Below are positions 29,299-51,787 of a stretch of 64,000 bases of DNA, in pieces. The stretch comes from a virus: the IMG/VR virus record IMGVR_UViG_3300044714_000024, positions 1 through 64,000 of that record; one strand, written 5' to 3'. The notes under the pieces were generated by a model. That model was given only the letters and a program-made list of their open reading frames with translations, was not told the origin of the DNA and did no database searches. The first letter of the stretch is position 1. The number at the start of each line of letters is the position of its first letter. Position numbers and translations under genes: made by a program.

Positions 29299-29386
29299 GC
29301 AGACTCAATCTAAAACTGTGATGTTGTAATTTAGTCACGACTTTATCTGCTAGGCGTATGGCGTAACTTCAACATTGGAGAGACTC

Positions 29387-30196
29387 ATGCGCAAACTGTT
29401 TCTGGGGACTGTGGCGCTTATTGCGCTTTCTGTTCCTGCATATGCGGCAGATATGGCTCTGAAGGCCACTCCCCCGCCTGCCCCTGCCGGTTCCGGCTGG
29501 TTCGTCGGTATTCTCACTGAGGCCGATGTCGCTCAATCGAATGTCAGCGGTACGAACGTCTTTGCTACAAGCCTCGCCAGCGGCAATCTGACGGCCACTG
29601 GTGGCTCTGTCGGCGGTCGCGTTGGCTTTATCGGCGGCGGCCAACTCGGTTGGTACAGAGGGCTCCTGACCGGCGCTTGGGCCAATATCTCCGGTAACAA
29701 CAGCGTTGGCGCGACGGCAACCACAAGTGCCGCAAGCGCGGCCATCGCCAGCCGATGGAGCTCGACCCAGGAATTCGATATTGGCGTCGAGTGGTTGCAA
29801 CGCATCACTGCGGCTCTGCCGACGTTGGGCAACATCAATCTGTTCCCGGCCATCACACCGATCACCCCGACCGTTCCTGTTGGGGCACCAAAGCAATACA
29901 TCGGCGTTGGCCTCAAGGAAGCCGGGATCAGTGGGTCATTCGGTGCGGCGTCGGGTACGCAAGTCGGCATCTATCCGATAGTCACTGGTGGCTTCATCTG
30001 GCCCACGCTCGGCGCCAATGGTTTGCCCAATGGGGGCGCCATCGATGCCTCTGCCGGTGTCGCGTTTCCCGTGAAAGGTTTCACGATGAATAACGCCTTC
30101 GCCACCAACGGTGCTCCGCTCACGTTCGGCGCCGGTGCAAATCTCGGAACGCAGTATTGGACGCGGCTGAGCTACGATTTTGCCGTGAGTAAGTAA
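29387..30196 (+). CDS. Outer-membrane beta-barrel (porin-family-like) protein
   Basis: 269 residues; ATG with ttggagaga upstream. Signal peptide MRKLFLGTVALIALSVPAYA, cleavage before ADMALKATPPPAPAGSGWFV. That proline-rich mature N-terminus followed by W(F/T)xG is characteristic of Bradyrhizobium-type outer-membrane proteins. The rest alternates hydrophobic strands with Gly/Asn turns (GGSVGGRVGFIGGGQLGWYR; GTQYWTRLSYDFAVSK). It probably inserts in the host outer membrane. A plausible role is blocking superinfection or altering uptake. It resembles a captured host gene and is followed by a terminator. Confidence 0.65.
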   Translation: MRKLFLGTVALIALSVPAYAADMALKATPPPAPAGSGWFVGILTEADVAQSNVSGTNVFATSLASGNLTATGGSVGGRVGFIGGGQLGWYRGLLTGAWANISGNNSVGATATTSAASAAIASRWSSTQEFDIGVEWLQRITAALPTLGNINLFPAITPITPTVPVGAPKQYIGVGLKEAGISGSFGAASGTQVGIYPIVTGGFIWPTLGANGLPNGGAIDASAGVAFPVKGFTMNNAFATNGAPLTFGAGANLGTQYWTRLSYDFAVSK

Positions 30197-31575: not shown

Positions 31576-31650
31576 TGGTGCCCAAGGAAGGATTCGAACC
31601 CACGACCAACGGTTTACAAAACCGCTGCTCTACCGCTGAGCTACTCGGGC
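31576..31650 (-). tRNA. tRNA-Thr(TGT)
   Basis: Complete cloverleaf on the minus strand: acceptor GCCCGAG/CTTGGGC, D-arm GCTC...GAGC, anticodon loop TTTGTAA (anticodon TGT), T-arm GTGGG-TTCGAAT-CC. The 3' CCA is encoded. Confidence 0.88.
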
Positions 31651-31661
31651 GTTCCACAAAA

Positions 31662-31738
31662 TGGTCGGAGAACTACGATTCGAACGTAGAACCCTCTGCT
31701 CCCAAAGCAGATGCTCTACCAGGTTGAGCTATTCTCCG
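31662..31738 (-). tRNA. tRNA-Pro(GGG)
   Basis: Cloverleaf on the minus strand: acceptor CGGAGAA/TTCTCCG, anticodon stem CTGCT/... with loop TTGGGAG (anticodon GGG), T-arm CTACG-TTCGAAT-CGTAG. CCA is encoded. The closest relatives of this pattern are proline tRNAs. Confidence 0.88.
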
Positions 31739-31758
31739 AAACTCATTCAACTCCTATT

Positions 31759-31836
31759 TGGTCGGGGCTAACTGGATTTGAACCAGCGACCTTCGGCTCT
31801 GCAAGCCGACGCTCTACCGGACTGAGCTAAGCCCCT
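31759..31836 (-). tRNA. tRNA-Cys(GCA)
   Basis: Minus-strand cloverleaf with anticodon stem TCGGC/GCCGA and loop TTGCAGA (anticodon GCA), T-arm GCTGG-TTCAAAT-CCAGT and encoded CCA. The acceptor stem is imperfect (six clear pairs, GGGGCT/AGCCCC, and an extra base on the 3' side), so function is a little less certain. Confidence 0.78.
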
Positions 31837-39380: not shown

Positions 39381-40085
39381 CTAAACTGCCTCACCTAAGA
39401 TTTCTCGACTGAGCGCACCAAACTTTTCGGCATCACCAACCACCTGTCCTCTGAGGGCAACAATCCACCATCGCTCGCCTTGCCACTTCGGCGGGATAAG
39501 GGTTGCGTGAAGTGTGCCAGCGGAGCAAAGATTGAGCGGTCCCGATGCGGTATGAATAACTCCGGGATATGCGGGCGGAATCTTGCCACCGCCGTTGGCC
39601 GGGAGTGCTTGTTTGTTTGATCGCCAGAACGCGATGGTGGCGCCTTCCTTCCGAAGCGCCGCAAGGCGCTTCTGCAAAGTGTCTGGCCAGGTGGATGCGA
39701 AAGCATCCACCGTTGCCAGCCAATATTCTTTAGAGCCATCGCCATAGCCATAGCCATCGCCATAGCCATAGCCATCGCCATCGCCATCGCCATCGCCATC
39801 GCCATAGCCATCGCCATAGCCATAGCCATAGCCATAGCCATCGCCATCGCCATAGCCATAGCCATAGCCATCGCCATCGCCATAGCCATCGCCATCGCCA
39901 TCGCCATCGCCATAGCCATAGCCATCGCCATAGCCATAGCCATAGCCATCGCCATCGCCATCGCCATAGCCATAGCCATCGCCATCGCCATCGCCATAGC
40001 CATAGCCATAGCCATCGCCATAGCCATCGCCATCGCCAAGCCACGCTGGCAGGCTTCCGGCGGTCAAGGATGCTACTTGCGCCAT
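39381..40085 (-). CDS. Protein with long (Asp/Tyr)-Gly repeat and conserved C-terminal domain
   Basis: 234 residues from the ATG at 40085 (MAQVASLTAGSLPAWLG). Residues about 17-118 are an uninterrupted run of GDG/GYG dipeptide repeats encoded by a hexanucleotide tract. The C-terminal domain (YWLATVDAFASTWPDTLQKR; GATIAFWRSN; GTLHATLIPPKWQGERWWIV; FGALSREILGEAV) is a recurring but uncharacterised phage/proteobacterial domain. Repeat number changes would alter length without breaking the frame. The start overlaps the end of the preceding gene. Confidence 0.6.
   Translation of the reverse strand: MAQVASLTAGSLPAWLGDGDGYGDGYGYGYGDGDGDGYGYGDGDGDGYGYGYGDGYGYGDGDGDGDGYGDGDGYGYGYGDGDGYGYGYGYGDGYGDGDGDGDGDGYGYGDGYGYGDGSKEYWLATVDAFASTWPDTLQKRLAALRKEGATIAFWRSNKQALPANGGGKIPPAYPGVIHTASGPLNLCSAGTLHATLIPPKWQGERWWIVALRGQVVGDAEKFGALSREILGEAV
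39735..40038. repeat. Hexanucleotide tandem repeat (GCCATA/GCCATC)
   Basis: About 50 perfect units of six bases, each differing only at the last base (A or C). On the minus strand they encode GY or GD pairs. All three reading frames on this strand stay open across it, which produces spurious ORFs. Confidence 0.95.
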
Positions 40086-40375
40086 GGGGCACTCTCCCAA
40101 GCCGCGATGGCTTCCGGCGTACAGTCGGCCACGCCAGTTACGTTGCGAGCGTCGAAAAGAGTAGCGGCGGGGCCAATCCGGCAATTCGCATTCGGTCCTG
40201 TCGCGGCAAGATCAAGGAATCCCTTGAGGCTGCGCCATTGAATGCAATTCCGCGCGTTCCTAAGAACGATGTTCGGGCCACTGGTATCGGTCGCGTAGCC
40301 GAAGAAAACGCCACGATTGCCGGTAGTGACAAGCACAGCGCGTTCGGTCTTTTTTCGGTTCGGGTGGTTTACCAC
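40073..40375 (-). CDS. DUF6948-like protein
   Basis: 100 residues if the GTG at 40375 is used (ggagag 6 nt upstream); an upstream in-frame ATG at 40432 exists. ERAVLVTTGNRGVFFGYATD, NIVLRNARNCIQWRSLKGFL, LAATGPNANCRIGPAA and ADCTPEAIAAWESAPWRK match a small family (DUF6948-type) that recurs in phages. Function unknown. Its end overlaps the start of the repeat-containing gene. Confidence 0.6.
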   Translation of the reverse strand: MVNHPNRKKTERAVLVTTGNRGVFFGYATDTSGPNIVLRNARNCIQWRSLKGFLDLAATGPNANCRIGPAATLFDARNVTGVADCTPEAIAAWESAPWRK

Positions 40376-47151: not shown

Positions 47152-47199
47152 TGTCTCACGAGAGGTTGGAGTGTTCTTTGCCGCCGGATGCCGGTCAAC
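47152..47199 (-). repeat. Repeat family B, copy 6
   Basis: Divergent copy: TGTCTCACGAGAGGTTGGAG and CCGGATGCCGGTCAAC. On the minus strand it ends 3 nt before the ATG at 47148 and overlaps the 3' end of the next upstream gene. Its right part forms CCGG-at-gCCGG-type pairing. Confidence 0.5.
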
Positions 47200-47428
47200 C
47201 GGCGATCTCAATGGCGCGGCGGATGGCCTGCGGTGCGAGAAAGGCGCCGTGGACCACGCTGATGCGGCCACCGACCGGATCAAGTTTGACTGCCTTCGCT
47301 TTGCGGAAAGTCGTCAGCGCCTTGAACGCTTCATCCTTGGTGCAGCCAGCGATGACCACGAGCGCGTTAGTGAAAGCCTCTTCGGCGTTGATGATGCGCT
47401 GGGCGATGGCTTTGTAAGGGTTAGGCAT
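47195..47428 (-). CDS. First gene of the leftward block; small hypothetical protein
   Basis: 77 residues, MPNPYKAIAQRIINAEEAFT, then IAGCTKDEAFKALTTFRKAK and GRISVVHGAFLAPQAIRRAI. Helical, and resembles winged-helix or HTH-like small phage proteins. It is divergent from the HTH gene at 47523 across the control region, the usual place for a Cro-like or early regulator. Function unproven. Confidence 0.5.
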   Translation of the reverse strand: MPNPYKAIAQRIINAEEAFTNALVVIAGCTKDEAFKALTTFRKAKAVKLDPVGGRISVVHGAFLAPQAIRRAIEIAG

Positions 47429-47450
47429 GGTTTAGTCCCCTGTGTTCGAT

Positions 47451-47485
47451 AGTCATCTTATGACATGCCAGATTATGACTGTCAA
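47451..47485. promoter_or_regulatory. Divergent promoter/operator region
   Basis: Between the divergent genes at 47428(-) and 47523(+). On the minus strand TTGACA (47480-47485) lies 16 bp from TCATAA (47458-47463). Two TTATGAC copies start at 47458 and 47473, 15 bp apart, and AGTCAT (47451-47456) pairs with ATGACT (47475-47480). They overlap the minus-strand promoter, as expected for a repressor operator. Confidence 0.5.
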
Positions 47486-47522
47486 GCGTTGACGAAAGAT
47501 TTTTTTTCGGCTATGAGGGACC

Positions 47523-47726
47523 ATGATCACGGCCACAGACCTAAAGCGTGCCCGTACCCGCCGGGGGGAAACCCAAGAGCAGTTTGCCGCCCATTTTGGG
47601 GTTGGGAGGACTACAATCCTCAATTGGGAGACCAAAGGTCCGCCAGCGACCGGTACGGCGCCTCACTTTATCGCTCAGGTTTTGGCCAAATTGCGCGACA
47701 AAGCGCCGCAGGAGGCCGCAGAATGA
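47523..47726 (+). CDS. Cro/CI-family HTH regulator
   Basis: 67 residues. LKRARTRRGETQEQFAAHFG then VGRTTILNWETKG is the helix-turn-helix of the XRE family. It is small and Cro-sized, and probably binds the operator in the divergent region just upstream. No integrase is present, so it may act in timing early transcription or maintaining a plasmid-like state. Confidence 0.8.
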   Translation: MITATDLKRARTRRGETQEQFAAHFGVGRTTILNWETKGPPATGTAPHFIAQVLAKLRDKAPQEAAE

Positions 47727-47943: not shown

Positions 47944-47996
47944 GTATGACCCCGATGAGCCAACGCCCACTCGGCCAAGAATGAGACAACCCCTTG
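47944..47996 (+). repeat. Repeat family A, divergent copy
   Basis: GTATGA at the left and AGAATGAGACAACCCCTTG at the right, the latter nearly identical to the end of the copy at 46879-46930. The middle forms CCGA..GAG/CTC.GG pairing. It ends at the TTG start of the next gene. Confidence 0.45.
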
Positions 47997-48713
47997 AAAC
48001 CCCTAAGCCCCCGCGAACGCCTAGCCCAAGCCCTCGATACCATCGGGGATTACGCCCAACTTGCCCATAAAGCCGGGGTTACGCCACGGGATTTCCTCAA
48101 TGCGCAGTCGGGGCGAATCTGCCCTACCGTACCATTTCTGAGGATTTGTGTTGCGGTGCGGCACGATCCGATGCCGGAACTGGTTCACATCATGCCGGAA
48201 AAGCCCTCAGATTTTGACTTTGGCTTTTTTTCCATGGCGTTTCAGATGAAACAGGCTATGCGGGGCGATACCGATGCCGCCGCTGCACGACATATGGGCT
48301 TCATGCCTGCGACTATTCGCCGCATAGAACGAGGCGACGCGCTGCTGATTGGAGTTATCCTAACGGTCTGTAAGTACATAGAAATGCACCCTTTTGGCTA
48401 TCTTTCTGTGTCCGAGACGCCATCCCGTCCTATCGAAAAACCTAAACCGGCTCGTGTTTCACGTGAAACATTGGCGCCAATCGAACCTTCTCCGCTCCAT
48501 ATCCTCTTGAAAACACGCGCAAAAACGCAACGGCAAGTCGATATGCTCGGCAAAGCACTAGAACGGCTTGAGGGCAAGAAGGACTATGCGGATGTTTTCA
48601 CGCGGCATCAGCGGTATTTGGCGGCGCTGGCCGAACAAACGCTGGCGATTGAGGCGGTTAGGTTGCTGGAAGGCAAGGAAGTGAAGGTTTTTGGGTCATT
48701 AGGGGCCGTGTGA
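47994..48713 (+). CDS. HTH-containing regulator-like protein carrying a parS site
   Basis: 239 residues from a TTG start. Two HTH-like segments: residues 8-36 (ERLAQALDTIGDYAQLAHKA, VTPRDFLNAQSG) and about 92-115 (DTDAAAARHMGFMPATIRRI, ERGD). The C-terminus is helical and charged (LKTRAKTQRQVDMLGKALER). The codons for RVSRETL contain an exact 16-bp parS (48455-48470). Probably a DNA-binding regulator working with the 47523 gene. It is preceded by a structured gap and a family A-like repeat. Confidence 0.5.
   Translation: MKPLSPRERLAQALDTIGDYAQLAHKAGVTPRDFLNAQSGRICPTVPFLRICVAVRHDPMPELVHIMPEKPSDFDFGFFSMAFQMKQAMRGDTDAAAARHMGFMPATIRRIERGDALLIGVILTVCKYIEMHPFGYLSVSETPSRPIEKPKPARVSRETLAPIEPSPLHILLKTRAKTQRQVDMLGKALERLEGKKDYADVFTRHQRYLAALAEQTLAIEAVRLLEGKEVKVFGSLGAV
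48455..48470. promoter_or_regulatory. Perfect bacterial parS centromere site
   Basis: TGTTTCACGTGAAACA, a 16-bp palindrome identical to the conserved chromosomal ParB-binding consensus (TGTTnCACGTGAAACA). It lies inside the 47994-48713 gene. No parA or parB gene is seen here, so host ParB would be the binding protein. Confidence 0.8.
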
Positions 48714-49077: not shown

Positions 49078-49830
49078 TTAAGTGATCCGGTTGCCGGTGT
49101 CGTAACTCGCCATCGCTTCGCGGTCGATCATGTCTCGCGTGCAGAACAGCAAGTAGTCAGTCTCGCGGGACTTCCCGAAAGCGTCCGTGTAGCGAATTTC
49201 GCCTATGACATAGAGTGCGTGGCTTCCTCGCTGAATGCCGACAATCGTGGCCACGTTAAGAGCTTGGTTGATGCCCGTATTGACTATGAATGTGGCGTCC
49301 GGCGCCAATGGGCGCGGCGGCAACATTCGGTCTCTGCGAGGGAGGGGGCCAGTGAGCGGGAAAGTGGAAAAGCCCATTGCCGCCCAGTGCGTGAGATTTG
49401 TAGCGGGGGTTTGCCCAGAGTTTTTAATCGTGATTACGGCCTCTGGGTGGCCACCAATGGCCAAGTTAAGGAGATGAACCGAATCCACCATGACGTAAGC
49501 GCGCAATTGCCGTTCCGAATGGCGTTCGCCAGAGAGCCAGAGGAGTCGGGTGGAACGCCAGAGCGTCCAAGTGAAAATTGCGATGACCACCGCAGCGGCG
49601 GCGCTGACGTTGTCATGCGTAACGTAACCCCAACTGAAAGCCAAAAACCGCATGATCCCTTCATGGAGGGTGGCGCAGGTTTGATAGCCGGGCTGATTAT
49701 TGGTGCCCTGATACTGGCTTACGACTATGCAAGCAGGCCAGCGTGATGTTTCCCAACTCAGAACCTCTGCGAACGCAATATATCCCGCCGCAAGATAGGC
49801 CAAAAACCACTTGTCGGCGCGACTTAACAT
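49078..49830 (-). CDS. Passenger gene of the IS: membrane-anchored protein
   Basis: 250 residues. N-terminal spans at residues about 7-25 (KWFLAYLAAGYIAFAEVLSW) and 78-95 (SAAAAVVIAIFTWTLW), then a soluble beta-rich domain (AYVMVDSVHLLNLAIGGHPE; VITIKNSGQTPATNLTHWAA; SHALYVIGEIRYTDAFGKSR). The soluble part is of the kind found in uncharacterised proteins of soil proteobacteria. It starts within the transposase 3' end, so the two are co-transcribed. IS1595-family members are known to carry passengers. Function unknown. Confidence 0.7.
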   Translation of the reverse strand: MLSRADKWFLAYLAAGYIAFAEVLSWETSRWPACIVVSQYQGTNNQPGYQTCATLHEGIMRFLAFSWGYVTHDNVSAAAAVVIAIFTWTLWRSTRLLWLSGERHSERQLRAYVMVDSVHLLNLAIGGHPEAVITIKNSGQTPATNLTHWAAMGFSTFPLTGPLPRRDRMLPPRPLAPDATFIVNTGINQALNVATIVGIQRGSHALYVIGEIRYTDAFGKSRETDYLLFCTRDMIDREAMASYDTGNRIT

Positions 49831-50726
49831 CCGCCGATTGCCGTTCCGAAGATGTCGGAATTGAAGCGGTTATTATAGCGGAACTGAAATTCCGCAACGT
49901 ACAGCGGCATGTATTTGGCGCTGACTTTGTGGAAACTGCCAACGATGCCGCGCTTGAAGATGCTCCAAAAGCCTTCAATCGTGTTCGTGTGGACCGCGCC
50001 GAACACGTATTGCCCGGCATGGTGGTCAACGGTCTGGTGCGGGTAGCCGCTCAGAGAGTGATAGACGTTGCTCTGGTCAGTCGCGAGCAAGCTAACCTTA
50101 TTGGAGACAACCTCGCGGACGAAATCCTGTGCGCTTTCCTTTGTGACTTTAGCCAGCACGCGGGTAACGACGTTGCCCTTGCGTTCGACCGCGCCGATGA
50201 TCGGAGTTTTGCTCTTGTGCCCGCCACGCTCGCCGCTGCGCTTGCCGTGCTTATTGATGGCCTTTCCGCCGATGAAAGTTTCGTCAACCTCGACAATGCC
50301 GCCAAGTTGGGTTTCCGGCTCGATCAGCGCCGCGCGGATTTTATGGGTCATGTGCAGCGCGGTTTCATAGGAACCGAAGCCCATTTGCCGCTGAATTTGC
50401 AGGGAGCTAATTCCCTTTTTGCTGCACAGCATCAAATGCACGACCTTGAACCACTGGCGAAGCGGCTTGTTCGTGTTCTCAAAAATGGTGCCCGCGATAT
50501 GGGAAAATCTGTAACCCGCGCCCTTGACCGTCTCACACTGATAGCACTGCCATTTGAAGGCCATGGAGCGGACAGGGAAAACCTTGGGGTTGCCGCACCT
50601 GGGGCACACAACGCCGTTCGGCCAGCGCCGCGCTACGAGGTAAACCGCACAGGCTTCCTCGTTCGTAAAGCGCGCCTCAAACTGGCTTTCCGTCATCTGG
50701 TGGACTGGCTTAGGACGCTTGGCCAT
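49824..50726 (-). CDS. IS1595-family (ISXO2-like) transposase
   Basis: 300 residues from the ATG at 50726 (MAKRPKPVHQMTESQFEARF). Zinc ribbon CPRCGNPKVFPVRSMAFKWQ ... CYQC, then the RNase H-like core: VDETFIGGK (first Asp), LLATDQSNVYHS (second Asp) and VHTNTIEGFWSIFKRGIVGS with the N...E/K end of the family motif. It would cut and join the 27-bp ends and make the 8-bp target duplication seen here. Confidence 0.92.
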   Translation of the reverse strand: MAKRPKPVHQMTESQFEARFTNEEACAVYLVARRWPNGVVCPRCGNPKVFPVRSMAFKWQCYQCETVKGAGYRFSHIAGTIFENTNKPLRQWFKVVHLMLCSKKGISSLQIQRQMGFGSYETALHMTHKIRAALIEPETQLGGIVEVDETFIGGKAINKHGKRSGERGGHKSKTPIIGAVERKGNVVTRVLAKVTKESAQDFVREVVSNKVSLLATDQSNVYHSLSGYPHQTVDHHAGQYVFGAVHTNTIEGFWSIFKRGIVGSFHKVSAKYMPLYVAEFQFRYNNRFNSDIFGTAIGGC

Positions 50727-50796
50727 GACGGCCTCCCTGCTTATGGAGGCCAATATGGCAGATAATTCTAGACCAGTCAAGAGGCAGATAATCGCC

Positions 50797-51012
50797 ACTA
50801 AAGACAGGTTGCAAATAGAGGACGAACAAATAACCTCCATCGTCACCAAGGCAATACGAGACTTCAATTTGCTATCGCCTTACCAAAGACGACGCGCGAG
50901 ACAAATAACGAGACGATGGTTTGTTGGTGGTGGAGCTAATGCGGTAAGACCTGCGGGCGATGAAGAAGGTTTCGAAACGTCATACGATAATCTCGACTTT
51001 CAAGGAGGATGA
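50797..51012 (+). pseudogene. Gene disrupted at its 5' end by the IS
   Basis: The open frame ATKDRLQIEDEQITSIVTKA then NLLSPYQRRRARQITRRWFV runs to the stop at 51010. Joining 48955-49001 directly to 50805 restores a continuous frame with a start (GTG 48955 or 48973) in or next to the family A repeat. So the IS split an original gene of about 85 residues. An ATG inside the IS (50719 or 50755) could now start a fusion product. Confidence 0.6.
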
Positions 51013-51475: not shown

Positions 51476-51787
51476 ATGCCGCGAGAAACCGACGCCTACG
51501 ATATGTTCGCCCCACGCGAGCGCGGGCGATTCGGGGAGAATGAGGAACAGCATCGGCTAGGTCGCGGCCCGCGCTTTACTGGCGCCTCCGATCCTATCGA
51601 CCTGACGGTATGGTTGATGATGGACAACCCCGACAAGAAAGCGATTGCGGTTTCCGACCCGGCGAAAAAGGGTAAGCCGCAGTGGATTTGGCTTCCCCGG
51701 TCGCAGGTTGAGTATGTCAAGGCTGAGGGCGGCGCGATTCTCTTAACTTTGCCGTACTGGCTGGCGAAGGATAAGGGGCTGATATGA
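51476..51787 (+). CDS. Small hypothetical protein
   Basis: 103 residues, PIDLTVWLMMDNPDKKAIAV then KPQWIWLPRSQVEYVKAEGG and LLTLPYWLAKDKGLI. This WLPxSQ(V/I)E pattern recurs in short phage proteins next to methyltransferase or replication genes. The stop overlaps the next ATG. Confidence 0.55.
   Translation: MPRETDAYDMFAPRERGRFGENEEQHRLGRGPRFTGASDPIDLTVWLMMDNPDKKAIAVSDPAKKGKPQWIWLPRSQVEYVKAEGGAILLTLPYWLAKDKGLI

Follow-up and report, generated by a model that had tools for sequence, protein, structure and literature searches.

The question raised by this locus is why a phage genome should carry an exact copy of a bacterial centromere site. The DNA analysed, here called the window, is a stretch of 64,000 nucleotides and comprises nearly the whole of a 64,203-base virus record. 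At positions 48455-48470 it contains TGTTTCACGTGAAACA, the sole perfect 16-bp palindrome in the window, which conforms exactly (0 mismatches) to the chromosomal parS consensus. The number of copies expected in the window from base composition is 7.7e-6 (~8e-6). The palindrome is translated in frame as VSRET within the plus-strand ORF 47994-48713. Thus an earlier note on this DNA was right that an exact 16-bp parS is present, that a 16-base match in 64 kb goes beyond chance and that the site lies within coding sequence (RVSRETL). Another palindrome-like stretch, at 48238 and with 3 mismatches, was rejected, as relatives do not keep it.

The ORF starts with TTG, encodes a 239-aa protein and is the second plus-strand gene after a gap between divergent genes (47429-47522), which is presumed to be the early control region. 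The gap is flanked by a minus-strand ORF (47195-47428), the first gene of the leftward operon, encoding 77 aa with coding-like codon use and no family match, and by a plus-strand ORF (47523-47726), the first gene of the rightward operon, encoding a 67-aa Cro-like HTH regulator (PF01381, E = 5.7e-5; PHROG transcriptional regulators). The parS lies early in the rightward operon, ~0.73 kb past the cro-like gene. The earlier description of the site as adjoining the divergent control region needs qualifying, as the two are about 0.93 kb apart. Its assignment to an HTH gene is weaker, as the PF13560 match in the centre of the 239-aa protein (residues 94-116, away from the site; E = 0.012) falls short of the cut-off, and the better-supported HTH protein is the 67-aa regulator. 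The structure model of the 239-aa protein is of low confidence (pLDDT 39.8), with the site in a low-confidence linker and a helical domain at the C-terminus. The part encoding this domain (48474-48713, plus strand; KALERLEGKK...) gave tblastn matches on its own and is a separate ORF directly 3' of the site in four other loci (G049, G050, L332 and L335). The whole protein had no match among INPHARED phages.

The record is that of a ~64-kb podovirus: its portal is akin to the portals of BPP-1-like podoviruses, and terminase-like, capsid and internal virion genes are also present. Six-frame searches of this record and of the relatives G001 and G003 gave no ParB (TIGR00180, PF02195), no ParA (PF13614), no serine recombinase (PF00239) and no tyrosine integrase (PF00589; G049, G050 and G056 were outside this search), although profile searches could overlook a strongly diverged ParB-like protein. 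The statement that the window has no parA or parB was therefore upheld, and both of the genes that a type I partition system of the phage-plasmid ParABS kind has in cis were missing from all six frames. No plasmid replication initiator was recognised among the genes scanned. With the 239-aa gene and the portal as queries, no prophages or homologues were found in genomes from 84,980 species of bacteria and archaea.

Several other features of the record can be listed here. An IS1595-type (ISXO2-like) transposase gene lies in the early region (49824-50867, minus strand), with similar genes in other clade members, and the gene at 39381-40184 (minus strand), which matches TrAA12 (PF22807), may have an auxiliary metabolic role. 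The minus strand also carries, at 31576-31835, a cluster of three tRNA genes: Thr(tgt), Pro(tgg) and Cys(gca). A recombination endonuclease VII gene (PF02945; 8365-9042, plus strand) is placed within the structural region and had no match in the ten relatives compared. The protein encoded at 29375-30196 (plus strand) has a signal-peptide-like start and no Pfam match; we take it to resemble Hyphomicrobiales outer-membrane proteins, and a comparison with plasmids gave no match.

Two opposite patterns had been anticipated for relatives: conservation of the DNA beyond codon constraint, or a protein kept while the palindrome varies at synonymous sites. The first was found, the DNA being retained while protein, frame and gene change. 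In G001, G002 and G003, the protein is 72-74% identical to the 239-aa protein and the exact 16-mer sits in a linker ridden with indels (the G002 protein sequence equals that of G003 here). G003 and G001, the latter probably complete since it has a 127-bp direct terminal repeat, match the window in the early region and in a few further genes, but not in the main structural genes. The VSRET peptide and its codons are both identical in three relatives, yet 53% of comparable codons (invariant, degenerate) are identical anyway, and codon identity was rejected as too weak a statistic to serve as sole evidence. G050 and G049 have structural genes in common with the window and the 239-aa gene replaced. 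The G050 site has one mismatch and forms the 3' end of a different ORF (NVSRETLLDSGLE-stop), the G049 site has two and lies just past the stop of that different ORF, and each retains one perfect half-site.

Two further loci, L332 and L335, were found regardless of the site, through a conserved neighbouring 103-aa gene (51476-51787, plus strand; 70-90% identical in seven contigs). In L332 the exact site stands at the beginning of a third ORF and is read in another frame (FHVKH); in L335 the corresponding syntenic position holds a remnant with 3 mismatches. Across these syntenic loci, identity is 89% in the site and 28% in the 40-bp flanks. In the distant relative G056 (portal 67%), the 239-aa gene has no counterpart and the single exact site lies within a virion ORF, while the site is absent from G058 (48 kb, incomplete) and from shorter fragments. 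It is thus the site, rather than the protein, that is the conserved element. G050 and L335 demonstrate that the site is able to decay, and the imperfect G050 and G049 sites together with the L335 remnant suggest weak constraint in some relatives.

The 16-mer was found in at least 120 IMG/VR stretches, a non-random sample, compared with none for a control palindrome of the same letters and one for a near-neighbour control. Among the matches listed, the sites are in VSRET, in FHVK or in no long ORF, on contigs of 27-72% GC. When 48 of the larger site-bearing records, the present clade included, were searched with TIGR00180, 43 had no match and none had a match above the cut-off. Some of the contigs in IMG/VR may derive from hosts. 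The record of locus L087 (G034; 117 kb, GC-rich), with 24 parS-like sites, mostly TGTTTCACGTGGAACA, is possibly a host chromosome misclassed as virus.

One group, making up most of 34 of the 120 loci listed, has a TerL like those of the pelagiphages HTVC023P and HTVC027P. To remove selection on the site, 80 loci of the marine podovirus family (L252-L331) were fetched by TerL. The exact parS was present in 47 of the 80, 32-92 bp upstream of the TerL start, and about 300 control palindromes gave a mean of 0.003 sites. About 40% had no site in the sequence examined, so the distribution is patchy. Two of the terL loci have TGTTCCACGTGGAACA beside the exact site. A packaging or promoter role is another possible reason for the place of the site beside terL. 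Separately, five exact copies are clustered beside terL in each of two related contigs (L017, 2657-3444; L044, 10535-11462). Among 18 cultured phages checked, 17 had no site at ≤2 mismatches; the exception was HTVC027P, with a near-site of one mismatch that may be coincidental, as it appears to read FHVKH in an unannotated open frame.

The near-copies vary in the way that ParB tolerates. Of the 24 substitutions in phage near-sites with one or two mismatches, 22 affect position 1 or 5 of the half-site; these near-sites come from the loci retrieved with the 16-mer, five multi-site or GC-rich loci excluded. The core change in G050 is an exception to this rule. Chromosomal parS sites vary likewise at positions 1 and 5 (PMC7022226, PMC4368675); the B. 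subtilis parS, TGTTNCACGTGAAACA (PMC7022226), and the perfect P. aeruginosa parS, TGTTCCACGTGGAACA (PMC4368675), are both position-5 variants. Asymmetric sites with one perfect half are bound by P. aeruginosa ParB in a graded manner, with lower affinity (PMC4368675).

In our view the 16-mer is likely to be a true bacterial parS without a ParB of its own, an orphan site that would load host ParB onto phage DNA. Since an exact parS is carried and no ParB gene is detectable, the window virus, like many unrelated ones, very probably borrows the chromosome-segregation machinery of its host. ParB binding at the phage parS and all the steps that follow are what we infer from sequence. After DNA entry, host ParB-CTP would load at the phage parS and the loaded clamps would slide outward, so that the ParB-marked genome would present host ParA and the other partners of ParB with a second centromere. 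In Caulobacter, ParB nucleates at parS, spreads about 2 kb and contacts ParA and MipZ; plasmid-borne parS is bound and harmful, reducing viability up to about 1000-fold, a loss explained as plasmids being segregated in the chromosome's place (PMC5815017). The likeliest use, put forward tentatively, is that the host centromere machinery is hijacked during infection, either positioning phage DNA or competing with the chromosome and disturbing its segregation. A lone phage site, competing with several host sites, may recruit little ParB. It is also conceivable, at a similarly tentative level, that a ParB-less host centromere is a recurrent strategy of several unrelated lineages, in which host ParB clamps loaded during infection position phage DNA and usurp chromosome segregation and division. 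If so, phage and host would meet at an interface so far unrecorded, in the core of chromosome segregation, which a 16-bp signature could predict. VSRET and FHVK, as encoded in unrelated phage genes, would then be peptide traces left by a DNA signal and not motifs of the proteins.

Recruitment of host ParB would also be the first step in the next likeliest use, in which an unintegrated, plasmid-like prophage would be partitioned by host ParABS. We regard this as possible but doubtful. It would suit a phage that has Cro-like regulators and a divergent region though the window record, G001 and G003 gave no integrase or serine recombinase. Plasmids that are otherwise unstable become stable with a single parS and its Par proteins (PMC7022226, PMC4368675), and SGI1 is stabilised through borrowed ParABS (PMC10954446). 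However, no replication initiator was recognised, the site also occurs in the terL-linked family related to cultured pelagiphages, and Caulobacter is strongly harmed by plasmid-borne parS (PMC5815017). With the site upstream of terL in that other family and in a virion gene of G056, a role in the lytic phase is no less likely than plasmid-like maintenance. Of the earlier interpretation, then, host ParB recruitment gains strong comparative evidence, while the proposed maintenance or decision module is not established. Hijacking and partition may co-exist, as they do for SGI1.

A regulatory use, in which ParB at the site would act on the early operon as a roadblock or silence it at long range, appears improbable. 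The location early in the rightward operon would be apt, and an excess of ParB keeps parS plasmids from replicating in E. coli (PMC4368675), but the position varies across phage families, from upstream of terL to the virion ORF of G056. More improbable still is an operator for a phage-encoded regulator that resembles parS by coincidence or convergence. Such an operator might be expected in a regulator-rich early region with HTH genes adjacent; against this, the site is retained where the neighbouring regulators differ (a phrog_35-type repressor in G050) and in G056, which is without the 239-aa gene, many unrelated phages have the identical 16-mer, and the tolerance pattern fits that of ParB. 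Chance, codon constraint on VSRET, or misbinned or acquired host DNA is hardly credible, for while the shared VSRET codons (at the 53% background) and the presence of host DNA such as perhaps L087 in IMG/VR give it some footing, it is contradicted by the minute expected copy number, the near absence of control palindromes, the phage genes surrounding the sites and the constancy of the DNA as frame and gene change.

The preferred reading, an orphan parS that would be served by host ParB, can be compared with three known systems. Chromosomal parS has the exact 16-bp sequence, varies at the same tolerated positions and, in Caulobacter, is likewise found within genes (PMC5815017). It differs in being near the origin and usually in several copies, whereas the phage site is viral, usually single and has no adjoining parAB. 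Phage-plasmids with ParABS, such as P1 (parABS) and actinophages (reviewed in PMC11652158), also have a centromere on a phage genome, but each of them brings genes for its own ParA and ParB along with a dedicated centromere, and neither gene was found here. In the full-text literature searched (preprints and most subscription papers were outside the search), no phage lacking ParB was reported to use the ParB of its host, and for an orphan parS aimed at the ParB of the host chromosome we found no phage precedent. The nearest parallel would be SGI1, which hijacks the ParABS of IncC plasmids: it carries copies of the IncC parS, by which SGI1 is stabilised and the plasmid expelled (PMC10954446). 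Both are mobile elements that have the parS of another replicon and no ParAB of their own, the partner in the phage case presumably being the host chromosome, and the functional likeness is hypothetical. The target of SGI1 is a helper plasmid, and SGI1 makes the Sci protein as well, whereas the phage would target the partition system of the host chromosome itself.
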